DNA of 21,733 bases from Saccoglossus kowalevskii (Eukaryota; Hemichordata; Enteropneusta; Harrimaniidae), in NCBI RefSeq assembly GCF_000003605.2, contig NW_003152750.1, positions 1,478 through 23,210 of the forward strand. The letters run 5' to 3'. Positions 1-21,660 of this stretch are shown piece by piece. Each line of letters begins with the position of its first letter. The first letter of the stretch is position 1. The notes under the pieces are model-generated. The model was not told where the DNA came from. It searched no databases and saw only the letters and a list, made by a program, of their open reading frames with translations. A program made the translations under genes and the position numbers.

Positions 1-780
1 CAAAAACATCAAAAAACATCATGTGCCATCGCAGCAGAGCGACCCCATTTTTCTTGTCTCTTTATTGTGATTAGACGAACTTCAGGAAGAAGTTGTAGAG
101 ATTTTGTTTGATGGCTACAGTAACGCCGACTTGGACATTGAGGGTTTTGAGTTTGACGAAGATGGCAATGAACGTACAAATAAAGATCTGAGAAGTTTTT
201 TCAAACAGCTATGAATTTTTATAATTATTACAGTGTAAATTTGTAAATTATTGTTGATCTTGTATGACAGTTGATTCGCAATTTGTCAAGACCGGAAATC
301 ATTTTACGTAGTTTAACCCCTGACATTTTAATTCATTTTGGGCGTGTTTGTCGGCGGGAAAATCCTAATTCAAATGATAATAATGCATATTGTTCATTTA
401 TTTCTGTTGCATGTTTTCATTTGTCGTTCTATTCCCTGTCGCAGTTCAATCTGCATGTTGTCAATTTTCAATGCATGTTAAGAACCCTGGGCTTATACCC
501 GGATAAATACAATATTTACCCTTCAGAAGTGGTTATTCTATGTGACATAAAGGCATTCAAGTTACGCAAAAAATATTTCAACAGACCTAGAAAATAATTT
601 CCTGGATACTTGGTTTTTCCAAAATAGCCTTTTTCATTCTGAAAACCCACCACTCCAAGTGTTTTGTATGTATATACGTGTTGAACAATTTGAAAATAGT
701 CCATTCTATATGATTTCATGAGAGGATACACAACAAATGTTTGTCAGAGACGCCACCATAATAATACATTTGCCACTAAC
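1..780 (-). other. Partial intron of the HELZ-like gene (left edge)
   Basis: This stretch follows the GTTAGT donor (780 down) of the last HELZ exon in the window. The next HELZ exon would encode the region between the EKWM motif and the helicase core. I looked for it on the minus strand and did not see it, so the intron runs past position 1. Open stretches here on both strands have no recognisable domains. The only coding-like segment is the plus-strand one at 75–214, listed separately. Confidence 0.6.
75..214 (+). CDS. Possible 3'-terminal exon of an unrecognised plus-strand gene
   Basis: A pyrimidine-containing stretch ending in AG at 73–74 is followed by 45 open codons and a TGA at 212–214. 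The first codon would be split, with its first base in an upstream exon outside the window. The frame is closed at 68–70, so a splice is required. The peptide begins ELQEEVVEILFDGY and contains DLDIEGFEFDEDGN: strongly acidic, then a basic/hydrophobic end SFFKQL. I do not recognise the family. Acidic segments with an EGFEF-like core occur near the N-termini of some transposon-derived proteins, but here the segment ends in a stop. It would lie antisense inside a HELZ intron, so a nested gene or a transposon remnant is plausible. No canonical AATAAA follows closely. Confidence 0.3.
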
Positions 781-970
781 CACATTGAGAGGTGTAGTAG
801 AAGTCATCCACTTCTCTAGGATCTGTTCTGCATAGCTATTACCATGAAGCTGCCTGTCTTTTGCTCGTTGCATCTTCATTTTCCGGTACTTGTACCTTTC
901 AATCCATTCTGATAATTCATCTTCTGAATGTGCTGAAGTACACTGTTCACCAAATCTACATTTAGGAAAT
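781..970 (-). CDS. HELZ: HELZ-like coding exon 6: CCCH finger end and EKWM helix
   Basis: The acceptor TTGTCAG sits at 972–971 and the exon opens with the third base of a split Arg codon. It encodes residues 266–328: FPKCRFGEQCTSAH completes the CCCH zinc finger, SEDELSEWIERYKYRK is a charged helix, and LHGNSYAEQILEKWM is the segment best conserved in HELZ. The exon ends in phase 0 after LNV at a GTTAGT donor. The alternative donor three bases earlier (AAT|GTGGTT) is weaker. The split-codon phase fits only this acceptor: the other nearby AG (CATACAG) is out of phase. The first zinc-finger spacing is three residues shorter than in human HELZ. Confidence 0.85.
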
Positions 971-3900
971 CTGACAACGGCAAAAGAGAGACAAAATAAA
1001 CATGACTGTATGATTAGTATTTTTAAACCAAGAGACTATATCCATTTACTGAGAGATCTAGTGTTATGCGTGAAATCGTACAGAAAAACAGGACAAGCAA
1101 AGGTCATACCAGTAGTATCATAGTGATGTTATAACATCACATGGAATTCAGCAAACACAAAAATATTTCAAGCTTAATATGCTATATACATTTGTGGATG
1201 GTCAATTTTGGTGAATAAGGATATCACAAAAAAATAATTAAATTCTCTCTCGAAGATTTTGGTGTTATTTCGACAATGAGCTTTCAAAAAATTCAAATTG
1301 TTCAATTTTTGCGGCAGACGCCTATAATTCCCAAAATGGTGAGAGAACAGGAATAATGGACATGAACTTTGCATCTGTCATTTAGGGAGGTTTCACTGAG
1401 TTCCGATACCTGTATTAGTACACTTGTCATATTACTTTTAGATAGTTTTATCTGGAAAAGCTGCACAAACATGTTTTTGTAAGTAACCAGGTTACTGTTT
1501 CATCAGAGGAAACATTTAAAAGCTCAGCATCAGAAAACTAGCTGCTAGTTGCGCATAATTAAAGGACACTTGCAACAAACACACTTTCATAAACAAAATT
1601 CTGAAACTTTGCTGAAATTATTCATTGTGATTGGTTGTTTGGATATCTGAAATAATTTTTAAACAATGAACCTCAATTGTATATATTTTATCGATTTTCC
1701 AATCCAAAAGACCCCTCTAAGTCAAGTTTAACACTACATGAAAATCGCAAAGCTAATGTTTCCATGGGAACAAGCTTTTATTTTCCCCATTGTCAATTAT
1801 TTGATGGAATGTCAATATATTTTGACTTCTTCTCCAGCTGTGAACAGCATCATATTAGCTTCTGTGATTAAGCACACACTACCATTCATTTAAATATAGC
1901 TGCTTTCACTTGAGGTTTCTCCACATTTTCTCAATAGATCACCTCTAATTTGTGACCAGATTGAACATCTGTGACATTTTCTGCTCACCAAGGTATAATA
2001 CATTACTTGGGCTGAGTTGCGTTCTAACACAAATACTGTAAATGTATTCATTATTCATTTGGTTTTAATTTAGCTATTTTCACTGATAAGTATAATTCGC
2101 TACATTAAATCTACGTGAACATGTAAAATTAGCAAAGAACTCATTGTTTCACTTGCAAATTTATAAACGAAAAACCCAGTGAATATACTCAAAACATCAG
2201 AATAGCGAAATTAAATGTCAGTGAAAATAAATGGTATTACAGTAATGGGAGATAATCACCAAGCATCACTATATCGGTCAGTCGGCCACAGAGGCCAAAC
2301 TGTAATTGACCGTAGTGCTGAAATTTAAATTTTGCATGGTATTTAATTGTTGATGCCATATAATGATGTTTTTTAGTGCTTCTTATTGCATTAAGTTAAT
2401 TTCATGACTTCCTTGTATATCAAACATTCATGTGAACTAAATTCTTCATCTAAGAATTATGTTGATTTATTGTGTTTTATTTAGGTCTTAATGGCCCCAG
2501 TGTGCTGTTTTTGCACAAGTCTGTAAGTCTTTTGTAAACATCGCAGCTGCTGAAAAATCAGTTGGTCACCAATAGCTTGTTTATTCCAACTCATAAAATC
2601 ATAAAAGTGACAGTAATTTTGGAAGAGACTATGGAATATATAGATACAAATGAACTATTAGAAAGATGGAAAAAAAAATTACTTGTGAATGCTTTGCCTT
2701 GGGTAACAATGATCTCTTTGAATAGGCCAACCCTATACAGTATTTTCAAATGACATGTCAGTAAAGTTTTTCAAAAATTAAGTTGCGAAACAGTTTAATT
2801 AGCCATGCGGTACAGAATATGTTTACAAAAGAATATCAAGGCCTACCTATCACATAAAGAATACTCTTCACTAGTTACGCCTCTAGGCGGCGGCCTATGT
2901 TTCCAATCCCTGCCATCGTCTGACATTATAACAGCCTGATGACTTTCACTAGTACAATGAAGGTGAAGATCTACAGCAGTTTGACATTTCACATCACAAT
3001 AAGAACAGTAATAAAATTCTGCAATAAAAACAAATGAATATTTAACTGTGAGTCTCACAGCCTAATCAGTGACATCAGATACGAGTTGCAATGCATTCTT
3101 GGGAACTGTCTACTGACTACCTGTTCATGCTTTGCATACTACCACATATAGAATGTAAACAGCCTTAATTTCTTAAGAAAACAATTTGCGAATTTTGCAA
3201 GTAAAAAAAAAATTTGCAAAAATTTGGAGCAGTTCAAATTTCTCTGGTGTCCTATTACACAAATTTTTCAGTGGCTTTCATAAAATTTTGTCTTTACAAA
3301 TGCTATGAATCAGTGAAAATTAAAAGTATACAGTTATAAATAAAATATAATCAAAGGACGACGGTTGTTGTGTCATGTCCTGTTGATATGGGACTCATAG
3401 CGACATACATGATAATGCATGTAAAATACATTGTTTGTTTACATGAAATTCAAACACGTGATGGGTGACAACCACAGCCCTTTATCAAACACGCAAACAA
3501 ATCACATACTGTACTGTAAATGTTCTAAATTAGAAGCCACTCCTATGATACCTAAATTACAATGTTCTCATCAAAATCATGTCTTTTTGTACATTGCATG
3601 ACACACAAATCAAAGAACACTATGCACAAGTACTTTGTCATATTAAAACTAAGATATACCAGTACCAAATCTAAACTCTGAGAAAATATTACAGAAATTC
3701 AGCAATCTGAAAAAGTTATTACAGTAATTGACACTAATTTTTCAGATTTTTTTTTTTTTAAAAGTTTAGATCAAAGAATAGAAAGCTATGTTTATTTAGT
3801 GCCAAATTAACTGAAATGTGGAAAGTATGGATTTTAAAATCAGCTTGAGATAGTTGACTACCATTAAATCCAAAGAAAGTATAGTTGCCATAATTATTTT

Positions 3901-6900
3901 TCGCACAAAAAATGTGTCAAACACTTGAGAAAATTGTTGAGTCATTTACCAAGGTAAAATGTTTTGTCAAAACTCAGGTACATACAGTAAAAAAAAAATC
4001 ATAATACTTATAAAGATGGGTGCACATATGGTTGTCCAAAATCAGTGGAAAATTCTGAAACTGTTTATTTTTTAGAAAATTGCTTCATAAAGGCACAGTA
4101 TTGCAAAATATTTTATGCTGGATTAAAAATATCCAAAAGTTGATGCATTATGTATAAATAAACTAGTACAAATGAGATTGCTCCCCTGTCAGCAATACAC
4201 GTTTCAATTAAAGAATAGAAGATATCAGCATGAAATGAACAAATCTGAGAGAAGTCTACATGTAGTGCATATATGTACATTGTATAATAAAAAATTAACC
4301 AGACTTGCGGTTTTCAACAAGAAGTTGAAAATATCACTTTTTACAAAAAATATTCATCAAAATTAAAGAATTGAAGATACATGTATCATCACAAAATGAA
4401 CAAATCTGAGAGAAGTCCACATGTAGTACCCATATATGTAATACATGTATATCAAAGCAACCAGACTTATGTTTTTCAACAAGAAGTCGAAAGTATCACT
4501 TTTTACTAAAAATATTCATCAAAATTAGAGAATTGAAGATACATGTATCATCACAAAATGAACAAATCTGGGAGAAGTCCACATGTAGTACCCATATATG
4601 TAATATCAAAGCAATTGGACTGCAGTTTTCAAAAAGAAGTCGAAAATATCACTTTTACCAAAAACGACAAACATATTCCTCAAAATCTAAGAAGTCTGCC
4701 CAAGGAACATACATACACCAAGTATCAAAGCAATAACAATTGTAGTTTTCAAGAAGAAGCCGAAAAATCAAAAGTTGACACAGACGCCGACGGACAACCA
4801 CTAATATGATAAGCTCCACTTGACAAAGTCAACAGCAGAGCTAAAAAGTTGACGCAGATGTCGGACTAAGACAGACAATCACTCTTATGATTAGCTCCAC
4901 TTGACAAAGTCAACAGCTCTTATGTAATACAATGTAGCTTGATTATTCACAAACAACCTCATATAATTATAATACATGCAGTCATAGATACAGACATGAA
5001 AATGTCCACCCTTTTGGCGATGTGCATCTCTTACCTATACATTTGGCAGGTTTACTATTTCTTTTCTTATTTACATTAACATCATTGCCAGTTGGTGTTT
5101 GTTGACTTGCCGCTAAGTTACCTTTTGAAAACGTTGTGTGGTTTGATCCATCTACTGTGGCTTCTACCTCCTCTAAACTACTGTGTGCGTCATCCTCGTC
5201 TGCCCCCTGAAATTAAACAAGAACATGCGTACTTAGTTATTTAATAAAATAATAAAAGAGAACAAATTCACTGGTATGAAAAAAAAAGTTTCCGTTGTCC
5301 TGAAAGCATGGGTATGTGGAAAACACTGCATCATACCAGGGGTACATGTAACATCATGGAAACATTGAAGGAAATAGGTGATTTTCCGTTCAACTGCTAG
5401 ATCTCGCGAGACGCATGAAAGACGCGCGTCAAACGTCTGCCACAAAATGATCGAATGATTTGATTTTGAACTTGAATTTCATAACTCACATCGACCGGCC
5501 GATCTTCGACAGAGGAATATTGCTTTCAAATACCCTCACTTAATCGAAATTGTCTATCATCAAATGTGTACAGCACATTATTAAGCATGCAAATGCCCCC
5601 CAAAATATTTTTGGGTTTGTCGAATGTCACGCGATGTTTGACGCCACTACGACGATTTCACGCATAACGCGCGATTCTCGCAGTGAACGGAAAATCTATT
5701 GTCTCAATGTCCAATGTGACTGAGATGTTTGGAATTTGGGGAAAATTTCCCTGCACTTTACTTTGTGGAATCTTTGATTGCTTAGACTGCTGTTACATTG
5801 TTATTCACAGACTCTGTGAAAAGTATTGCTATGTGCTGTTGAATGATGTGTGACTGGGTGTGTTTAAAAAGGCTGCAGGCAATTTCAAATAACTTGCGTC
5901 TGCGAAGCGGTGATTCTGTCATGGAACCCATAAAAACAGAAAATAGCTGGCTATTGGCAATATTTGTTCAAATCACAAAAAAAGGATTGACAATTTCACA
6001 CAATTGCAGAAAAAAGCAAGGAACTGACGTTGGGCAAGGTTAGTGTGGTGGCTGATACAAGACTGACATTCATACATCTATGACAAATATGATACAAATT
6101 GGAGCCAGTTTATTTGCGCATTTTTGCGTGTTTGCGTTGAATGAGATTAGTCCAGGCATGTCATAGATATGGCCTAAAACAGCATTTGTTAAAACAAAAT
6201 GGCTGCCAGTCTGCCATTTTGAATCTGATCTGGAAAAAAATGAATGAAATATGTCCATGCATGACCGGTTTCTGGAATGGCAGAAATGCTTGATTTTAAT
6301 GAATTTTTAACACAAAAATGGTAGCCATTCAGCTATCTTGAACTGGATCATAAAAAAATGCAAGTCCCATGTCCTTATTTATGAGAAGATGTGTGGTGTA
6401 TGTGTAAAGTTTGAAGACGATCGGGCAAGGCATGTTAGGAAAACAAAATGGCTGCCAGTCGGCCATTTAGAATTCAATCTGGGGGGAAAATGATAATATT
6501 ATAATAATATAATATTAATATAATATTAAAATCCTTACCTCCTCTTGTAAAGCATCTAGTATCTTTTTGAGTCGATTCAGTTCTTTTAAGGCTTGTGAAT
6601 TCTAAAGAAAAAAGATGAACAATATTGATGCATTTGACTGCGTAATGCAAGACACAACAATGATATTTGTAATCAGTCATACGCACATGAGATATATTAA
6701 AATAGAATATATATAAAATGATATGTATTTTAAAGATTAACAATAAGGAATTGCACACAAAGTTATCACCTCTTCACTGCAATGATATCCAATGTAATTA
6801 TAATACTGTGTGATGCCAATTATTGAAACAGTGTGTACTACATGTACTACATTTCAAAACTAGACCAAAACTTGGGTAGTGAGGGTAATTGGTTTTGTTG

Positions 6901-9900
6901 AATGTAAAATACACCTTTTTTACAAACTAGTGTCAAAATATTATACCCCAAACAAACGTATGAATCAATTGCTGAATGTGATATAAGGGCAGAGCATGTA
7001 GCACTTACTGATGTAACAAAAGAAAACTGGCTGTAGTTGTTCTGTTTTTGTCTAAATAGGGTGTTTGATAAGATCCTATTTCTTACATTAAATATTTGAA
7101 GGCGAAAATTTATATTTCTATATGCATAACATGCCCAGCCAAAATATTGTCCTATAGTTTTACTTTCAATGTTCAAAAATTGTGATAAGGAGGTTAAATG
7201 CTCATCAACAATTAATTAATAGCCCAATACTAATACAGGATGAAGCACTTTTTATATGTTGAGTCAAAGGTGTGAATGGAGTAACGATGAGGGGACTCAC
7301 CTCAGGTTCTAATTTGCGCCATAGCTTAGCCACATTGTGAGCATCGTTAAATTTGCCTAATTTACTAAGAGCTAAGGTTTTGCGCATTAATGCTTTACAG
7401 TTCTTGTTATCTGTTAATATCAATATCTTGTCGCAATCATCAATCACCTTTTCATGTTGTTTCTGAAAGAAAATAGAAGCATAGATTACATAAAGTAACA
7501 TGAGATGTTCAGCAAAATAAACCAACACTAGAGGTATCTGAACTAGTTTTTGAATTATTAACTTCAATTTAACGGCCAAGCTACTTTCTGATTGGCAAAA
7601 TTTATAGGTGTTTGTGTTGGGTAGCCAATCACGCAAAATCTTGTGAGAAGCTTTGCATCGACTGCAATTGTATACATCTTGCCAAATTTTCAATCAACAA
7701 GACATTTGAAAGTTCTCTTTGTGCTAGTTATATTAAAGTGGAGAGGTTGTCGCGAGTGTGTCCTTGAAACTTGAGTCCAAAGTGGCATATACAACAGATT
7801 GTAAATTCACATCAAATTCAAACACGTGTTGCATGACGACCCTTTCGATTTAAGACATAGCAAAGAAAAACATAGATCACAAGTGAAAGCATGTCCAAGT
7901 TATCACAATTCAAACAAACAAGATGGCCGCCAGTCGGCCATATTTTATCAAATTGCAACTTGAATTGACATGTACATGTATCCATTTATGACATGTTAAA
8001 TATCAATGAAAATGATACAGGGTGACAGAGATATAAGATATTATAAAATATAGATATAGAGATTATGAAACAAAGTGACATGTATGATGTATGTGCCAAA
8101 TATGAATGAAAATACATAAATCTTGGAAATATAGTAGTAAGGCCAAAAAGTCAGATGGCCATCCTTGATCGGATTTTGAAACAAATTGTCATGGACATGT
8201 ATCCTAACATGTATAAAGTATGTGCCAAATTTGAGTGAAAACTGACAAAGCATGTCCAAGATACCACATTTAAAAAAAAACAAGATGGCTCCCAGCCGGC
8301 CATCTTTTATCCAATTGTGATAGAAATTGTCATGGACATTTATCCTAACATGTATAATATATGTACCAAGTTTGAATGAAAATTGACAAAGCATGTCCAA
8401 AATACGACATTTAAAAAAAAAACAAGATGGCTGCCAATCGGCCATTTTGAATCGAATCGCCAAACCACTGCATGTGCACATGTCCCACATAAAGTACAAG
8501 GCACATGCAAAGAATGAACAGAATCGGTCCAAAGGATTCTGAAATATGACTCCGGACGGATGCACAGACACCTGGACAGACGGAGACCGAATTAAAAGTC
8601 CCCGTTTCCGGACTTCGTCTGAACAGGGACTAAAAATAGCCATTAAAGAAGATAGGAAAATCACAAAGTCACTGTTTCAATCAAGAGAAGTTTGGATGCC
8701 TCTGATTTTCATTTGCTTTTTATCATTTATCTGAAGAAACATTCCAGTCAGCAAAATATTAATAATTTTTCATTCATCTTTAAAATCAACAAATTAAATT
8801 TGTGGACATATGCACTATAAGTCAGTAACACATTAAGGTTTTTATCAAACTACATGTATCACTAGTACATGTCGACGATTAAACTACGTAATAAACACGG
8901 TACAGATACTGCATAGTGCTTAATTATCTGCTGTGGTTTATTTTCCTTAAATTTTTGAATGCGCTAAATTAAAACTCTGTGAATATTTCTCCTTCTACAG
9001 TACATTCAGTTGAAATTAAACATTGCCAGCAATTTGATCAAAATCTGATGGATGGATGGATGGTTTTGGAAACACATAACTACATCTAACTAATTCCCTC
9101 TGCACGTTACGTTCAGATCTCGCAGGATCAGTTTACAATCATAACTCATGACATGCCACTTTTGTGTAAGGTGTGCTCTATTGGTTGACAGTTGCCATCA
9201 GAGTAGTTCGTTGTGATTTAGATTATTATTTGTACAAACGTGTAGTTAGAGGCAATTTCACCGGTGACCAGAATTAAAAGCAAATAGAGCCATTTGCCTC
9301 TACCTACAGTGTATCTAAATAGGATTGTAATATGACAATAGATTTAATGAAAAACACATCAAATTTAGTGACAATGTGGGAAATTACCAATATTTCATTT
9401 AATTATTATAAATAATCCTTGTCAAAAATAACAATACATGTGTGTTCTTCTCAGGTGTACGAGTCCTATTAGAGAGAGGGTTGGACAAAAAATTTGTGAC
9501 AGTCCTTTTATAGCCTCCTCTCAAAACCGCAATTGATTGAGTACCGTAACTGCATTTTATAGTTCCCATGAGTTATCAAGTTTCAATCTCAGTATAACAA
9601 ATTTACTTTACTGATGTATAATATCTCAAATGAATGACGTCTTATTAATAGTAAAATCCTTGAATCAGTGTTTTAATAGATTGCAGTTGGTTTTTATATA
9701 TTTGGCTACCGATAGTCCAAAACTTGGTCCATGTAACTGATGGCATTTGTTTTACAACCATGCAAATAGCAGGTAACAAAGGTCGCTCACTAGCTCACGA
9801 TCTGCTATTCCAACATTACACATAAATTGTTTTAGTAATAAGGAGACATGCATGCATATTTAATAAAAGCAGCAGCAAACAATGGTATTATTTTATCTTT

Positions 9901-11535
9901 AAGTACGAACGACGACTTCTTGGCAACCAGTCACACCACATGCATGCAAAATGTAAACAGGTACAATGGCCTTTGGATGATAATATTCTTAGTACGGGGT
10001 TACATGTAACACAAACATCAAATTTTTCACATAGTATTAAAGTGATACTATTCCATTTTACTAATATTTTTATTAGTACAATACAAGTAACATAATGGTT
10101 ATATTCATGGCTGACATGTCAGCACATGCAACATATTTATTTTTACCAGGTTTAATATTAACTTGTTTGTGAAGGAATGCATTCCATTGTTAATTTTGCA
10201 TGTTCACTGGGTTTTAACTTAGTGCATTTACACAAATAATGTGGCTATCAGCAAAAAATAAAAAAAAACAAAAAAAAAACAGCAAATAATTAATAAGCCA
10301 TAAACAGTGAATTCACTTGCATAACAATACTCTTTCATTGTCTAAATTTTTGAAAACAGGTGTTGCATCATTGTCATGGAACACTTGTTCCAACAAGGCA
10401 GTAAAATTAATGGACATCATAAAATAACTTATTTCATATATGTGTGCTGCACATAAAACATAAATCATGCAGAACATTCATATAGTTTCTCATTCGGATA
10501 TACAGTGTATATAAGGCTAAATGTCAAATTTGTTTTAAAAATTGATTGAAAAACAGGGACTGTAAACCCCCAGTGAAATACAAGTGAGAAATGTTTATTT
10601 ACTGCACACAAACATTTTGTAAATGTAATTTTTTTTACAGACCATAATACTGTAATATTGAGTTAAGGTCACTCATATTCAACCCTGCTGAGAGCATGTT
10701 TTTTTAGTTGGGATTTTCAGTTGCTTTTAATTAGACACTCAGATGACATACATATACATGGTATTGTAGATAAATCTATCTTGAATAATACAACTATTCA
10801 GTTCTACAAAAACATACATTTCAAAGACGAGAATTAATACAAAAATTCAGGTTCATTGCATGTACTGCAATAAATGTTTAACTCGTCTCAAACACAAAAA
10901 ACAACATAACATGTATATGTATATATAGTGCACTTTTTTAGTCAAATGACGCACACATTACATTTTAGCCTGATCGAGCTTTGCATTACCGGTGCACCTA
11001 GTGTGGTGTTTGAGGGCAGATTAGATTTATCATTACAAAAATGTAGTCAATGACTGTTTGAAAAAATCAACATGTGAATGTTATGGGAAAGGAGGCTTTT
11101 TTATCATACAACTATGAGACTTTTACAGAAACAAAACATTTTATGCAATGCACAGAAAAAAAGAAAAATTTTAAATTCTCAAGTTCGGAAGCCAATTTAG
11201 AAAATGCAGTATTTGCACTATTAGAATAGCATACATACAGTGGGTACATGGTATATACATAAATACATGAATAAAATGTCATGACAGTTCAGATAACTAC
11301 ATGTACTTACCAGTTTCAGATAGCAAGTTACTCTGCTTGTTAAGTAGGATATTTGAGTATCTCTGTTATCGTCCGTCTCGGTGCCATTATTGAAATTGCC
11401 ACTACCATCATTGTTACTACCGGTAGGTACAAGTACATCCAGGGCCTTGGTGTAGAACTTTGCTGCTTCATTATAGTGCTGCGTTTGGTATAGATCAGTT
11501 GCCTTATCATGGAGCTCCTTATGCTTGCTTTCCAT
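781..11535 (-). CDS. HELZ: HELZ-like RNA helicase, N-terminal part (six coding exons)
   Basis: Joined exons, in transcript order, are 11535–11311, 7462–7301, 6601–6539, 5206–5035, 3018–2847 and 970–781. Phases agree at every junction and give 328 residues with no stop. Residues about 4–120 form TPR-type helical hairpins. Residues 130–207 are a charged then low-complexity linker. Residues 209–234 form a CX2CX12HX5H finger, about 243–252 a WKHRPPPRG motif, 263–279 a CCCH finger, and 280–328 a helical stretch with AHSEDELSEW and ILEKWM. RPPPRG, TSAHSxEEL and EKWM in this order are the signature of HELZ, an SF1 UPF1-like helicase. In human it binds CCR4-NOT and PABP and represses bound mRNAs. ZC3H7A/B share TPR plus C2H2/CCCH modules, but the LHGNSYAEQILEKWM segment favours HELZ. 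The helicase core lies beyond the window. It is divergent from the RBBP6 gene. Confidence 0.88.
971..2846 (-). other. HELZ-like intron 5, with one MITE
   Basis: The donor is AG|GTAGGC at 2846–2845 and the acceptor TTGTCAG ends at 971. The interior is AT-rich. Its only clear structure is the palindromic element at 2034–2244. I scanned it for a micro-exon that would restore the usual CCCH spacing and found none I could support. Open stretches at 1677–1871 and 2562–2753 have no recognisable protein content. Confidence 0.75.
2034..2244. mobile_element. MITE with TACTGTA ends
   Basis: The left end reads TACTGTAAATG and the right end, on the reverse strand, TACTGTAATACC. Inside these, TATTTTCACTGA near 2073 is inverted against TCAGTGAAAATA near 2218. 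GTTTTAATTT on the left also has a relaxed counterpart, ATTTAATTTCGC, on the right. The layout (TACTGTA ends, internal TTTTCRC and GCGAAA blocks, about 210 bp, no ORF) is that of short non-autonomous palindromic elements common in invertebrate introns. I could not define a target-site duplication. Confidence 0.6.
2847..3018 (-). CDS. HELZ: HELZ-like coding exon 5: U1-type C2H2 finger and RPPPRG
   Basis: The acceptor TTTTTATTGCAG ends at 3019. The first two bases complete Glu208 and the last two (AG) start Arg265. It encodes FYYCSYCDVKCQTAVDLHLH then CTSESH, a CX2CX12HX5H finger of the U1/matrin (dsRNA-binding JAZ) style, with ligands C212, C215, H228 and H234. After it come SDDGRDWKHRPPPRGVTSEE and YSLCD, where C263 is the first CCCH ligand. 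The finger followed by W-x-HRxPP and CCCH resembles the C-terminal module of ZC3H7 proteins. RPPPRG followed by SEEY and LC is shared with human HELZ. The donor is GATAG|GTAGGC. Confidence 0.88.
4205..4760. repeat. Three to four tandem units of about 160 bp
   Basis: Units begin near 4206, 4361 and 4523 (spacings 155 and 162) with AATTAAAGAATTGAAGAT-like sequence. Each carries AAATGAACAAATCTGAGAGA, then a CCACATGTAGTACCCATATA segment, a CAACAAGAAGTYGAAA segment and a run of TATCACTTTTTAC. The second and third units are closer to each other than to the first. The third grades into a shorter partial copy (ATCAAAGCAATAACAATTG) near 4727. Short ORFs here (for example 4533–4736) are frames through the repeat and not genes. 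Confidence 0.85.
4769..4916. repeat. Duplicated repeat tail of about 70 bp
   Basis: Two direct copies, about 4769–4835 and 4845–4916, share AAAGTTGACRCAGAYG at the start and AGCTCCACTTGACAAAGTC AACAG at the end. Each contains a GACGGACAA/GACAGACAA block. It directly follows the 160-bp tandem units, so the two probably form one composite element whose tail was duplicated. Such GACRGAC-rich tails closing an intronic repeat are common in marine invertebrate genomes. Confidence 0.75.
5035..5206 (-). CDS. HELZ: HELZ-like coding exon 4: acidic then basic linker
   Basis: The acceptor TTTAATTTCAG ends at 5207. The exon starts in phase 0 with GADEDDAHSSLEEVEATVDG and ends KKRNSKPAKCI plus one base of the split Glu208, before a GTAAGA donor. 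The 57 residues (151–207) are polar and probably disordered, acidic at the start and basic at the end, and link the TPR-like region to the zinc fingers. There is no domain of its own. Support comes from consensus splice sites on both sides and from perfect phase with exons 3 and 5. Confidence 0.82.
5362..5710. mobile_element. MITE-like element with about 55-bp imperfect inverted ends
   Basis: The left end ACATTGA...AATAG...ATTTTCCGTTCA-ACTGCTAGA (5362–5402) is mirrored on the reverse strand at the right end by ACATTGA...AATAG-ATTTTCCGTTCA-CTGCGAGA (5710–5672). The match continues weakly into CGCG and GCRTGAAA blocks. The core 12-mer ATTTTCCGTTCA is exact at 5381–5392 and 5684–5695. The interior has many more CpG dinucleotides than the surrounding intron. 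There is no ORF, so it would be non-autonomous. Confidence 0.7.
6150..6482 (+). repeat. ATGGC-palindrome repeat array A (three units)
   Basis: Three diverged units with cores at about 6196, 6314 and 6443, spacing about 120–130 bp. The core reads AAAATGGCTGCCAGTCKGCC followed by ATTT and then GAATYxRATCTGG. Between cores are AAGTTTGAA-like and GGCAAGGCATGT-like segments. The core is a near palindrome that can fold as a hairpin. Related arrays occur at 7915–8640 (same orientation) and 20820–21660 (opposite orientation). Confidence 0.75.
6486..6531. repeat. AT-only simple sequence
   Basis: A run made only of A and T apart from one G near its start, mostly TAATAT-like units, between array A and the exon 3 donor. 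It follows the six-G run at the end of array A and may be a degenerate microsatellite tail of that repeat. Confidence 0.7.
6539..6601 (-). CDS. HELZ: HELZ-like coding exon 3: short charged helix
   Basis: A 63-bp exon, phase 0 at both ends, with acceptor TTTTTTCTTTAG and donor GAG|GTAAGG. It encodes residues 130–150, beginning NSQALKELNRLKKILDAL and ending in two Glu. This is a heptad-like amphipathic helix that probably caps the TPR region. It resembles the KDLTRLKTLLSE helix at the equivalent place in human HELZ. The small size makes it easy to miss, but the splice sites are strong and the phase fits exons 2 and 4. Confidence 0.82.
6602..7300 (-). other. HELZ-like intron 2
   Basis: The donor is GAG|GTGAGT at 7300–7299 and the acceptor AG lies at 6603–6602. 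AT-rich. The open frame covering 6847–7176 shows no domain, composition bias or splice context suggesting an exon. Confidence 0.8.
7301..7462 (-). CDS. HELZ: HELZ-like coding exon 2: TPR helices
   Basis: The acceptor TATTTTCTTTCAG ends at 7463 and the donor is GAG|GTGAGT; both ends are phase 0. It encodes residues 76–129. KQHEKVIDDCDKILILT completes the TPR hairpin begun by CYLKL in exon 1. NCKALMRKTLALSKLGKF followed by NDAHNVA is a classic TPR pair (small residue at position 8, LG at the turn). It ends KLWRKLEPE. TPRs bind peptide segments of partner proteins. In HELZ the N-terminal region is helical in the same place, but its partner there is not something I can read from sequence. Confidence 0.9.
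7915..8640 (+). repeat. ATGGC-palindrome repeat array B (four units plus end module)
   Basis: Cores lie at about 7918 (CAAGATGGCCGCCAGTCGGC), 8153 (truncated, AGATGGCCATCC), 8281 (CAAGATGGCTCCCAGCCGGC) and 8424 (CAAGATGGCTGCCAATCGGC). Between cores run GTCATGGACATKTATCCTAA, CATGTATAA, CCAARTTTGARTGAAAA and GACAAAGCATGTCCAA, then a T/A run. The array ends in a GACAGACGGAGACC stretch and the hairpin module at 8597–8632. Spacing of the last two cores is about 143 bp. Confidence 0.85.
8597..8632 (+). repeat. Hairpin end module of array B
   Basis: A 36-bp module starting AGTCCC and ending GGGACTA, so its ends are self-complementary (AGTCCC/GGGACT, with GTTTC/GAAC just inside). A reverse-oriented copy with 28 of 36 identical positions is at 21121–21156 in array C, which makes it a fixed part of this repeat family. 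Confidence 0.75.
8907..9002. mobile_element. Possible short TACTGTA-ended MITE
   Basis: TACTGCATAG on the left and, on the reverse strand, TACTGTAGAAGG on the right enclose 96 bp with GTGGTTTATTTTC near 8933 against GAGTTTTAATTTAGCGC on the other strand. The layout matches the longer element at 2034–2244. The ends are short and imperfect, so this is tentative. Confidence 0.35.
9047..9063. repeat. GATG microsatellite
   Basis: Four tandem GATG units plus a partial one. Short simple repeat inside HELZ-like intron 1. Confidence 0.9.
9242..9307. repeat. Small inverted repeat
   Basis: GTAGTTAGAGGCAA (9242–9255) is mirrored by TTGCCTCTACCTAC (9294–9307), 13 of 14 pairs, with a 38-base loop. It could be a MITE remnant or a transcribed hairpin. 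The loop has no other feature that I can see. Confidence 0.5.
11311..11535 (-). CDS. HELZ: HELZ-like first coding exon: start codon and TPR 1
   Basis: The start is ATG at 11535, in context GAAAATGG (A at -3, G at +4), with an in-frame TAA shortly upstream. The exon also holds 20 bases of 5' UTR after a TTTGTTTTGTAG acceptor ending at 11556. It encodes 75 residues. HKELHDKATDLYQTQHYNEA followed by AKFYTKALDVL is a TPR. A Gly/Asn/Asp-rich spacer follows (residues 39–60, with SNNDGSGNFNN and TETDDNRD). SYLTSRVTCYLKL then starts the next TPR and continues across the CTG|GTAAGT junction. The low-complexity spacer between TPR helices replaces the shorter loop seen in many TPR proteins. Confidence 0.9.
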
Positions 11536-12052
11536 TTTCAGCAAAACAAATTAGTCTACAAAACAAATACATACATCCAAACTGAATAATGAAATTTTAC
11601 CCATCCATATTCACACTATGTCTTCCCAAATTGACATTTGCCCAACAGCAGCAAATGCAATTAAATTTGTAAATTAAAACCATTTTAGACAGCAATTGAA
11701 AGAAGGTTCGGGCTAAAATCTGAAATTATCTTTACTTATCTTTTTTATGATTTCATTATTATGGAATTAGGATACCAAAAAAAAAAACCTGGTTCATTTG
11801 GAACATATTGCAAGAAACAAAAGTCAGATATAGCATGCAAAATAGTTCTTTTGCACCATTCTTCCATGATGAGATTATTTCTCCATATCTTGAAGTTTTG
11901 CTTGGTGACATGGGATGAAAAAGTTATATAATTATTGATATGCATAAATTGACATTTAATTTAGTCAGTTTCAGGAGGGAATAATATTTTTTGATTTATG
12001 ATTTATGTATACAACAAGAAGTTTTCTGCCATAATGTTCTGCACATGTTCAG

Positions 12053-17173: not shown

Positions 17174-17342
17174 ATGTCGTCTATTCACTACAAATTTAAA
17201 AGTAGTAATGACTATGATACGTTAACTTTTGATGGGCTGCATATATCCCTGTCTGATCTGAAGCGAGCCATACTTACTCAAAAGAAAATTGGGAAGTCTG
17301 CAGAGTTTGATTTGCAAATAACAAATGCGCAGTCTGGCGAAG
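17174..17342 (+). CDS. RBBP6: RBBP6-like coding exon 1
   Basis: It starts at ATG 17174 and encodes residues 1–56 plus one base of Glu57, ending at AAG|GTAAGC. It contains the first beta hairpin, the helix GLHISLSDLKRAIL and the strand FDLQITNAQ of the ubiquitin-like fold. The frame stays open into the intron to 17473, but the conserved match stops exactly at the donor. Confidence 0.93.
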
Positions 17343-18073
17343 GTAAGCTAGCTATATGTGCTATTTGTTTTTCTTCTCTATTGTTGTTAATGTGTGGCGA
17401 CCAGGGCATATATTTTGTCAATAATAAGAAACTGAAGGATACAAACTTGTCAGATATTGGAAATAAGATTTGAATAGTGTTGTTTTTTTGTCACTTTGTC
17501 CAAATATGCTTTTTGATGTTCAGTATATTTTGTTGATTGTGATCACAAAGGAATAAAGAAAACAATGTGTTTCAAGAATGGATTTTTAAACTAAAAATTG
17601 TCATGGCTTTATTTCCAGAATACAAGGATGAATCGCACCTTATACCAAAGAATGCATCGGTCATCGTTAAGCGAATTCCTGTTGGCGGGATAAGAGCAAA
17701 TATTAAAGCGTAAGTTCTTTAAGATAATTAAAATAAAAAAGCTTGATAATAAATACTGCATACAAAAATGTATAAATCTGACTGTAGGCTACCGCAATTG
17801 ACATGCTAAAATTAACTTGGACATCAGGCTACTCTAAATCATAATAAAAATTCTTTACATTGAATTTATATTTAAGCTTGATTCTTCAAGGTTATACATT
17901 ATAGATCAAGTATTGTACTTTTCACTTGCACGGCAAATTGCACAGAGCATTAAAATCAAGTTAATATCAAATGAAAGTCAAGTTTTTCCATAAACGTCTT
18001 TCCTAAAATTGCTTTTTTCTGTTCTATTTTCAGGGAGCCGGTTGATCTGAATGGGGTACCAAATATCAAACCA
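17174..18073 (+). CDS. RBBP6: RBBP6-like protein, N-terminal DWNN domain (three exons, partial)
   Basis: Exons 17174–17342, 17619–17709 and 18034–18073 join in phase to give 100 residues. Residues 1–80 are a DWNN ubiquitin-like fold, beginning MSSIHYKFKSSNDYDTLTFD, with GLHISLSDLK, DLQITNAQSGEEY and LIPKNASVIVKRIPVGG. These blocks are nearly those of human RBBP6. The family is a subunit of the 3'-end cleavage/polyadenylation machinery (yeast Mpe1) and a RING E3 ligase that binds p53 and Rb in vertebrates. The zinc knuckle (expected CFRCGKPGHYIKNC-like) and the RING are encoded further on; I could not find them before 21733, so the next intron is long or the locus is broken. The ATG context AACATGT is moderate. 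The gene diverges from HELZ. Confidence 0.93.
17343..18033 (+). other. RBBP6-like introns 1 and 2
   Basis: Intron 1 is 17343–17618 (GTAAGC ... TTTATTTCCAG) and intron 2 is 17710–18033 (GTAAGT ... TTCTGTTCTATTTTCAG), with exon 2 at 17619–17709 between them. Both are AT-rich with no other feature that I can see. Confidence 0.9.
17619..17709 (+). CDS. RBBP6: RBBP6-like coding exon 2
   Basis: Its first two bases complete Glu57 and it then encodes residues 58–86, YKDESHLIPKNASVIVKRIP followed by VGGIRANIK, leaving two bases of Ala87. LIPKNxSVIVxRIPxGG is the most conserved block of the DWNN domain. The donor is GC|GTAAGT. Confidence 0.95.
18034..18073 (+). CDS. RBBP6: RBBP6-like coding exon 3
   Basis: A 40-bp exon after the acceptor TTCTATTTTCAG. 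It completes Ala87 and encodes EPVDLNGVPNIKP (residues 88–100), aligning with the EPV-containing stretch just after the human DWNN domain. The donor is CCA|GTATGT, phase 0. The exon is short and weakly conserved, but the acceptor is strong and the phase fits. Confidence 0.75.
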
Positions 18074-18139
18074 GTATGTAGTAATGCCATTTTTGATCAC
18101 AATGATTTGTGGTCTTGCGTAAGCTTTTATAATTATTAA
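18034..18139 (+). CDS. RBBP6: Alternative terminal exon giving a DWNN-only product
   Basis: If the GTATGT donor at 18074 is not used, the frame continues for 21 codons (VCSNAIFDHN, then DLWSCVSFYNY) to TAA at 18137–18139. The product would be 121 residues: the DWNN domain plus a short tail. Human RBBP6 has a DWNN-only isoform of about 118 residues, as I recall, made by the same kind of early termination after this exon. An AATAAA lies at 18470–18475. The product is inferred. A run-on frame of 21 codons can occur by chance. Confidence 0.45.
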
Positions 18140-20819
18140 TGTTAACTGGGCATTTGAATTTCATTCAGTAGTTACAAAAAAAAAAGAGTAGAAATTACTC
18201 AAGAGTTGATACACTTGATATCAACCTAATGTTATGTAAACGTATATTGCATTCACAAAATTACATTCTATGTGCATGTGCTGTCCGAGATATTAATTGT
18301 TGGCCCCTCCGTACTTGTACATGTGTTTTCACTTTTAAGTATAGAATTTACTTTTTTTTGTTGGCATATTTGTCACTGGAATAATCACTAGTACTCTCAC
18401 TTGCTAATATGCATTGAATATGTAGTTAAAAGAAGTTTTTTTTTTTCAATTCTTGCACAAACGATGTGCAATAAAAGATGATTTGATAATAGCCTGTGAC
18501 TGTAAAGCTGGACTCTATCAATATGATTGTCACATGGTTTGCAAAGATGATACTATGAATTTTGTTTCTACAATTTTCATTAGCATAACAAGGAGCATTG
18601 CCTGCCAAGTCTTCAGTCAAGGGAGCATTGTTTCTCTTAATAACATGAAGATATTATCATCAAAGTTTATGCCCATTTGTGGTAATTGATGATTTCAGTA
18701 ATGCGTGAAAATTGTAATGAAATATGGGCATTGGTATAATCTTCATGAAACAGTAACAGGTTTTCATAGAAAATGCCAAAAGTTATTTTTTTAATATTCT
18801 GCCATCTGTCTTTCATTTGGACTGGTTTCCATGGGCAAGTTATTATACATATATATATATAAATAAATATTTTATTACAGATTGATACATTTTTGCTATA
18901 TTTATTTCATACAGAGTATATTAAAATCAATTTTTACAGACATAAATTTACTATTAACACTGTTCACCCTGTGACTTATATTTTCTATGATGGAAAATGA
19001 ATAAAAAATATGCTGGGATTGCTTGAAATCCTTCTTGTGTTTCTCTTTTGATAACACCTACACTCACTCAGACCATTTATTTCATTCAGATGTATTTATG
19101 ATATATTTATGCATATTGTCGAATCCATGCATGTAGTGTTTTTTTGTTTTTTTCTGCAATACCCGTAATCTTTATGTATTCAGTATATGGAGACCTCAAT
19201 GTTTCATGACTAGATTTAATTATACAAACATTGTTGTACTAAAGTCTTAAGGTGTGCATTATGTGAAATAGAAAACTGTTTTGGTTTTCCACATACATTG
19301 TCCTACACAATCTTTTTATACTGGCCTGAATTGTGCAATTCTTTAATAATATGGAATTTTTTCTTGCAAGCTTGATTCATATTTAAGGAGCAAACTTGAG
19401 TGATAACATAAACTTGCAGCTAATATGTGATTTGCCTATTCATTTTAAATAATTTGGTTTCTAATCTTGTACATCTGGCAGTGACAATTGAATAGCGCAA
19501 AGTCTGCATTAGAGATACATGGAATCGCCTCGGCCTCTGCTATAAGTTGGTTGATCGATACTATCACCAGTCTGCCTTTGTGCATACTTTGCGATATTCT
19601 TGTTATAACCTCATGTACATGTGTCATTTGCACTAAGGAAATTTAATAAATTGCATGCTTATTTGTTGTAGTTGTACCACTCCCCTAAAATTTTATAATA
19701 CTGAGTACTAAATGCAAATTTACAAATTAATGATTATTACATGACATTTCTCAAAATTAATTTCCATAAAATAGCTGCACTATGAAAACTGTAGGTTTTG
19801 CAATGTTTATTTTTATACTTTAGATTTTTCAAGCTTTCAGTTGTACATAACTTTGTCATTATTTTATCATATAAATGTGCAAAATCGCAGTATCTTTTTA
19901 CATAATAGATGCTTTTCTTGGTGCCCTATTTAAAAACGTCTTGCAATGTGTGTAGATGATATGAGCAACTCGTTAATAAACTCTGCATTGCAATTATTTT
20001 CAAACGCAAGTTGCTTGTTGCTCTGGCAGTTTTGCCCAGGAAATATTGGTCCAGACATGCTAATTTCAAGTGACAACTATCTGTTGCTGTGATTTTTGTC
20101 ACTTGCATTTTCAGTCAAAAACCACTACTATGTGAAGGATGCAACAATTCCCAGAATAATGTGTATTGCATACTGGAAACATTCACAGAATTGCAATCAA
20201 CTGTCCTCGGGGGGGGGTGTGTGAAATTTTCTTTTATTTGGTCTGTAATTTTGGGTGCACAGTCTTGCATTTGGCCTGATAAATGAGACTGGATATCTTT
20301 ATTTGCCTGTCCACGGGGACAGCCAATTTCTATCTGTCTAGGACAGGTGGGCAGGCCTTAATAGACCATTTTCAAGTTTATAGGGACCCTTGTGATATCA
20401 AACATAAAAACGGGACAAGACAATACATATATCATCGTGGTGCGGTCGAAACGTGGGATTTGACAATCACAACATTATTTTTATTCTATTTCCATGCTTA
20501 ATGAGTTCACATTGAACGCATTGAAAATTTTGAAGTAAAAATATCTCGACACCATATTCCTCTCTGAAAAATATAAAACTATGGAAAAAATGGGGGTTAT
20601 TGAAAATGTTGCACATAATCCACACAAGGAAATGAAAAGCCAGATTTTGCAGCACTGCTGCCAGTCTGTTTTGAATTCACTTGACTACTCGTTAGAGCAA
20701 GTGATTTACATCCATGTTCAATAATAACGTGCATTACTGTCGCATATATAGGCAATATTATATTTAGTAACGCGTGAAAAGAACCTTTAAAGAAAGGCGT
20801 ATAAAGAATAAATGCATTG
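18140..20819 (+). other. RBBP6-like intron 3 or 3' region
   Basis: AT-rich, with a TATATATATA run near 18850 and a run of nine G at 20210–20218. No RBBP6 zinc-knuckle or RING exon is visible. Four open stretches without recognised domains occur at 18453–18689 (+), 19445–19633 (-), 19946–20092 (+) and 20089–20286 (+). None fits the required phase-0 continuation with a homologous sequence. Confidence 0.6.
18470..18475 (+). terminator. Candidate polyadenylation signal AATAAA
   Basis: A canonical hexamer about 330 bases after the DWNN-only stop, in sequence CAATAAAAGATG. It would terminate the short RBBP6 transcript. The hexamer is frequent in AT-rich DNA, and an extensive U-rich downstream element is not obvious. 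Confidence 0.3.
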
Positions 20820-21660
20820 CGTGCTAAATCCTCAAGATGGACACCTTGGACTAGCTCGTAACTGCATTAAGCAAGGGTTGTTAATCATATTCATACATTC
20901 TAAAAATTATTCTGTCACTTGTCAAACATGCCTGGACCATTTTTACTTCCTAGTTGAAGCAAAAAAAATTCACCTCTGCATTCATACCTGTATGGCTGTC
21001 TGGACCGATAGTGTTCAAACTTTACATATTGGGATAAATGTGCACTAGCATTGTTTTTGTGATCCAATTTAAACGGGACATTGATGCATGTTCAAAATGC
21101 TCAACTGGTGGGCATTTTGTTAGTTCTCGTTCGAACGCAGTCCAGAAACAGGGACTTGTGTTTTACCTCTGTTCGTTCGAGCCTGTATCTTAGAAATGCC
21201 TGGACCAATCACAATCATACATTACATTATACATGTGCACATCAATTTGTTTCAAGATCTGGTGGCCATTTTGCTTTAATTGATGTGATTCAAGTGCTAT
21301 ATCTGACTTGCTTTGACTGATTATGTTCAAATTTTAGATATTCATTATACATCATGTCATAGATATTCAGATATATTGGTTTAAAGATCCTATTTAAAAT
21401 GGCTGAATGGTGGCCATTTTGTGCTAAAAATCATCAAATATCAAGCATTTATTGATGGATTTTCGTTCAAACTTGGTACATACATTAGACATTGGTTCTT
21501 GATGCATGTCATTTTATTTTTCAAATTGGATTAAAAATCCCTAATTGGCGGCCATTTTGTTTTAATGAATGGGCTTCTAAAGCCATATCTCTGACGTGCT
21601 TTGACTGATTATGTTCAAATTTTATATATTCATTATACTTCATAATCATATTCCTGACAT
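20820..21660 (-). repeat. ATGGC repeat array C (inverted relative to A and B)
   Basis: On the plus strand the cores read TGGTGGCCATTTTG-like at about 21106, 21262, 21408 and 21545, so the minus strand carries CAAAATGGCCRCCA. Spacing is about 140–155 bp. Between cores, GACTGATTATGTTCAAATTT, TATTCATTATAC and CTTGCTTTGACTG are reverse-strand counterparts of the CATGTATAA, CCAARTTTGAATGA and GACAAAGCATGTC segments of array B. A diverged ATGGAC/CTGGAC part fills 20820–21060. Confidence 0.8.
21121..21156 (-). repeat. Hairpin end module inside array C
   Basis: The reverse complement starts AGTCCCTGTTTCTGGACT and ends GAACTA, aligning without gaps to the module at 8597–8632 with 8 differences in 36. 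Here it lies between units and not at the array edge, so array C may be two insertions joined. Confidence 0.7.

Follow-up and report, generated by a model that had tools for sequence, protein, structure and literature searches.

The window analysed here, 21,733 nt of DNA from Saccoglossus kowalevskii (contig NW_003152750.1), carries on its plus strand the first three coding exons of a gene for RBBP6. The coding part of exon 1 (17174 to 17342; 56 codons plus 1 nt) ends at the donor AAG/GTAAGC, with a U1 duplex of -9.5 kcal/mol; exon 2 (17619 to 17709) encodes the end of the DWNN domain, including the motif RIPVGG, and ends at the donor AGC/GTAAGT; and exon 3 (18034 to 18073), which is 40 nt long, follows the acceptor TTTTCAG, encodes the linker segment EPVDLNGVPNIKP and ends in phase 0. 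Spliced together, these pieces amount to 300 nt, or 100 codons. The DWNN domain is recognized at residues 4-77 of the product (Pfam PF08783, 8e-34), and alignment with the structure of RBBP6 isoform 3 (PDB 2c7h; E 1.1e-29) yields 52 identities over 82 aligned columns, corresponding to 63% identity. The Gly-Gly motif is present at residues 79-80.

The remainder of the gene was sought past the window, in the next 40,000 bases of the 270,776-base contig, part of which reads N. With residues of human RBBP6 serving as the query, six matches were obtained in this DNA (best E 4.5e-18). In window numbering continued, and again on the plus strand, the gene model comprises exon 4 (32344-32432), exon 5 with the zinc knuckle (32767-32869), exon 6 (33486-33622) and exons 7 and 8 with the RING (34277-34452 and 34626-34729), all of which join in frame, followed by exon 9 (from 37647), the last exon modelled. 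Pfam matches to the spliced protein comprise the DWNN domain, a zinc knuckle (PF13696) at 142-162 and a RING (PF13923) at 244-285, placing the CCHC zinc knuckle and the RING in one gene with the DWNN domain, downstream of the window. Because the zinc-knuckle and RING exons join the DWNN exons in frame, the locus is an RBBP6 gene, modelled on DNA through exon 9, and a stand-alone DWNN-only gene is ruled out. The human zinc finger has been assigned to exons 4-7 (PMC6415476), which fits a DWNN domain encoded by exons 1-3.

Several further searches bear on the identity of the gene. Inside the window there was no convincing candidate for exon 4 (best E 0.44), and the sole NCBIfam match to the spliced protein, to rad18 over the RING, reached 31 bits, below the cut-off of 175. 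An exon-by-exon search of the 572 Mb assembly, which may be incomplete, returned one DWNN locus at E <= 0.001, with two candidates scored, as expected of the usually single-copy RBBP6/Mpe1 family. Among stretches in viral_contigs where relatives were sought, 0 of 13 were confirmed.

Other features were observed elsewhere in the window. Open frames of an apparent second gene occupy the minus strand from 706 to 11550. This gene faces RBBP6 head to head, at a distance of about 5.6 kb on its upstream side, and appears to resemble ZC3H7; weak Pfam matches, below cut-offs, point to a zinc finger of CCCH-like type near 706-1035 and, near 11221-11550, to a start resembling TPR/MIT. By eye, two similar degenerate repeat blocks are visible in a long open frame on the minus strand at 8041-8676, and the degenerate repeat GGCCATTTTG occurs three times at 21260-21560.

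Exon 3 of RBBP6 is followed by the weak 5′ splice site CCA/GTATGT (18074-18079), whose predicted U1 duplex of -1.4 kcal/mol makes it the second weakest of the eight donors in the gene model; the other seven give -9.5, -5.9, -4.6, -1.3, -5.1, -6.0 and -5.1 kcal/mol. When a longer stretch of U1 is considered, the donors of exons 1-3 score -9.5, -6.4 and -3.4. Intron 3 runs from 18074 to 32343, past the window, and measures 14,270 nt, 6,899 of them N; because the N part may hide an exon, the intron that directly follows exon 3 is at most this long. The seven other introns range from 173 to 2,917 nt, and intron 3 is about five times the length of the next longest. Its part within the window contains six AATAAA hexamers.

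The combination of a large intron and a weak donor has been described by Luo et al. as the setting of poly(A) sites in composite terminal exons (PMC3708835). The setting found for CstF-77, a big intron with a weak donor and intronic AATAAA, is present here, on a comparison of eight donors and with AATAAA at chance frequency, and by this analogy the setting of intron 3 suggests that it could accommodate a form made by intronic polyadenylation. A weak donor alone says little, because the donor of exon 5 is also a GTATGT, equally weak, and precedes an intron of only 616 nt. Moreover, the longest intron would be expected to fall on one of the two weakest among eight donors in 1 of 4 cases by chance.

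A sequence-only reading of this DNA had proposed that the frame of exon 3 continues through the GTATGT donor to produce a DWNN-only isoform of RBBP6, and the coordinates, the length of 121 residues and the AATAAA about 330 bases on that it gave are all correct to the base. Translation past the donor adds a tail of 21 codons (18074-18136; VCSNAIFDHNDLWSCVSFYNY) and reaches a TAA stop at 18137-18139. The first candidate poly(A) signal 3′ of this stop, an AATAAA at 18470-18475 with UGUA and a T-run upstream, lies 333 nt beyond 18137, where the TAA begins. The frame is thus open through the DWNN domain and closes before the zinc knuckle, at 121 residues, but at a level expected by chance.

This chance level was estimated from all GTA and GTG sites in the window (583 on the plus strand and 628 on the minus strand). 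The frame stays open for 21 codons or more after 25.6% of those on the plus strand and 33.3% of those on the minus strand, as well as after 7 of the 23 GTATGT sites on both strands, the site under study counted. Of plus-strand positions 52.8%, and of minus-strand positions 39.8%, have an AATAAA no more than 397 nt away; for the stops reached from GTR sites on the plus strand, 45% have one no more than 333 nt away. The gene itself served as a second control: with the junction codon included, three of its eight modelled donors are followed by 21 or more residues, and in six of the eight introns the read-through stop is followed by an AATAAA within the intron, as in intron 1, where 43 residues are read and the hexamer lies 81 nt on. 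A rough, purpose-made score for the context of AATAAA (UGUA together with U-rich and GU-rich elements) ranks the signal at 18470 tied 12th of the 68 in the window on both strands. Three others in intron 3, at 19645 (2nd), 19975 (4th) and 19000 (9th), rank above it, and the first of these (19645-19650, plus strand), with its better UGUA/GU context, is an alternative candidate for an intronic poly(A) signal. Because both features match chance frequency in the window, the open tail and the AATAAA carry no evidential weight alone; they are a common product of an AT-rich intron. The sequence-only reading had counted them in favor of an isoform, a use that neither the survey of GTR sites nor the introns of the gene itself upholds. 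The length of the tail, the distance to the AATAAA and how good a signal the one at 18470 is were dropped as evidence, being at chance level or unremarkable in context.

A different account of the open frame, which we regard as very unlikely, is that exon 3 has tandem donors and ends at either 18073 or 18118, so that full-length RBBP6 would include 15 extra linker residues (VCSNAIFDHNDLWSC) and the frame would be open since it is sometimes or always coding. The candidate second donor, TGC/GTAAGC (18119-18124, plus strand), would extend exon 3 in frame by 15 codons; it lies in phase 0, its U1 duplex is -4.6 kcal/mol versus -1.4 for the GTATGT at 18074, and an in-frame GTRAG ahead of the stop occurs after only 23 of 1211 GTR sites (1.9%). 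Beyond the boundary, the linker of human RBBP6 is longer by 15 residues, and the readable part of intron 3 offers no convincing exon for their equivalents: among 180 phase-0 candidates of 18-90 nt examined there as possible mini-exons, the best (score 18) has a very weak donor, and one of 8 residues at 20323-20346 (score 16) has a strong donor (-10.3) and little likeness to the human linker. Against tandem donors, the 15 codons are intron-like: of 220 open intron pieces, 43% reach their log-odds of -3.9, and a value this low is found in 8.6% of 58 coding pieces; their codon make-up thus argues weakly against this account. In addition, GTATGT is also the evident donor of exon 5, the site at 18119 was noticed post hoc, and part of intron 3 is unreadable.

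What has been published on the human gene provides a framework for judging a DWNN-only form. Three human RBBP6 transcripts have been attributed to alternative splicing and alternative polyadenylation, and one of them, of 1.1 kb, encodes the 118-residue isoform 3 (Pugh et al., PMC1360078), whose origin has been ascribed to intronic polyadenylation (PMC7852185). Human RBBP6 is described as an activator of CPSF: its UBL (DWNN) captures the nuclease domain of CPSF73 in pull-downs, and a D43K-R74E mutant gives no activation (PMC8887125). The UBL-only isoform is reported to compete with full-length RBBP6 and to inhibit cleavage (PMC8887125, citing Di Giammartino 2014), and RBBP6 has been counted among prematurely terminated dominant-negative variants (PMC7471841) and grouped in a review with Pcf11 and CstF77 as controlling themselves through alternative polyadenylation (PMC7614891). 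The premises that human RBBP6 has a DWNN-only isoform of about 118 residues, that it acts as a brake on cleavage, and that it arises by intronic polyadenylation have published support. The further proposal that the short form is ancient fares less evenly. Pugh et al. associate the Gly-Gly motif with the short form, and their preliminary analysis of 2006 describes invertebrates as being without that form (PMC1360078). Our search of titles and abstract openings turned up no invertebrate for which a DWNN-only isoform of RBBP6 is reported, and passages of a paper on worm RBBP6 do not name such a form.

The comparison with human isoform 3 extends to the exon boundary and the tail. Two putative CPSF73-contact positions are kept in S. 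kowalevskii, where human D43 corresponds to E44 and human R74 to R75. We place the exon boundary of the human isoform between residues 101 and 102, with the tail VCKNTISHFFYTLLLPL after it. On this placement, the boundary, between residues 100 and 101 here, would be in phase 0 and at a matching position in both proteins, in a linker that is not surely alignable, the DWNN domain here being longer by one residue and the linker shorter by two. The human tail, like that of S. kowalevskii, opens with Val-Cys. This opening arises because any phase-0 GTATGT is translated in this way, and the read-through of exon 5 in the present gene begins likewise (VCMVFSL). The best local match between the two tails is VC-N-I, and relative to 6,615 stop-free random tails from 20,000 draws, the likeness has P values of 0.040 (prefix score), 0.069 (local score) and 0.026 (identities at positions 3-6). 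Tail likeness was not convincing at P 0.03-0.07. On the placement given above, the anticipated correspondence with the human isoform would extend to place, phase and Val-Cys.

These comparisons bear most directly on a tentative alternative, less likely than not, in which the weak donor of intron 3 would often be bypassed and the transcript cut after an intronic AATAAA, either the one at 18470 or one further along the intron, for example at 19645, yielding a 121-residue DWNN-only protein that serves as a feedback brake older than vertebrates. Such a protein could bind the CPSF73 nuclease domain without the zinc knuckle, the RING and the RNA-sensing parts, thereby competing with the full-length protein and damping cleavage; by analogy, the 121-residue form, if made, would be expected to act like the human short form. 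Consistent with this alternative are an apparent end at the same exon and in the same phase as human isoform 3, with the same Val-Cys opening, and the disparity between the 14,270 nt of intron 3 and the 173-2,917 nt of the others, coupled with a donor at -1.4 kcal/mol. Retention of E and R at the positions identified in the human protein points the same way (PMC8887125), as do the human precedents for inhibition (PMC8887125) and self-regulation (PMC7614891). On the other side, the case comes from the DNA of one species, the tail and the signal are at chance, the longest intron would coincide with one of the two weakest donors in the 1 of 4 cases noted above, and the published, if preliminary, view is that invertebrates lack the short form (PMC1360078). 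We consider it unlikely that an autoregulatory DWNN-only isoform made by intronic polyadenylation at the same exon predates vertebrates, contrary to that view, with its weak GTATGT donor and outsized intron maintained in evolution for this role.

The reading that we favor, with a probability of roughly 0.55, is that this site is the exon 3/intron 3 junction of RBBP6, normally spliced to exon 4, and that the tail and the AATAAA are incidental. Splicing of exon 3, which ends at 18073, would bridge the 14.3 kb of intron 3 to reach exon 4, with the zinc-knuckle and RING exons to follow; the full-length product would act as an activator of cleavage and polyadenylation, and a 121-residue product would at most be minor or occasional, the outcome of failed splicing. 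The gene model, the chance level of tail and signal, the length of the intron and the strength of its donor are read directly from the DNA; what we infer is that the junction serves mainly for splicing to exon 4 and that the short product is minor at best. Running counter to an incidental tail is the fact that the human gene makes a short form, which would end at the matching exon. The presence of the Gly-Gly motif, tied to the short form by Pugh et al. (PMC1360078), and of a very large intron with a weak donor, as in intron 3 of CstF-77 (PMC3708835), likewise weigh against it.

Known systems resemble the present one to differing degrees. Human RBBP6 isoform 3 shares the DWNN domain (52 of 82 columns), the Gly-Gly motif and, at the contact positions, E and R here, along with what appears to be the same exon end, phase and Val-Cys tail; for the human form, however, a transcript and inhibition have been reported, whereas the putative form of S. 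kowalevskii is predicted from DNA. CstF-77 (CSTF3) is likewise a gene for 3′-end processing with a very long intron 3 that has a weak donor and harbors poly(A) signals, but its short mRNAs are described as yielding no apparent protein, and its poly(A) site is conserved across vertebrates (PMC3708835). Drosophila SNAMA B is a short isoform of an invertebrate RBBP6, although it is described as keeping the zinc finger and the U-box. The DWNN genes resembling the RBBP6 N terminus that form an array on zebrafish chromosome 8, an unusual expansion numbering 18 copies in an older assembly and 208 in a newer one according to a preprint (PMC12667973), are separate multicopy genes, unlike the one DWNN locus found in S. 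kowalevskii.

If the favored reading is correct, an open tail and an AATAAA past a donor are simply what an AT-rich intron gives. If instead the short form is made and is ancient, the self-limiting of mRNA 3′-end formation by truncated RBBP6 would go far back in animals rather than having been added in vertebrates, and RBBP6 would parallel CstF-77.
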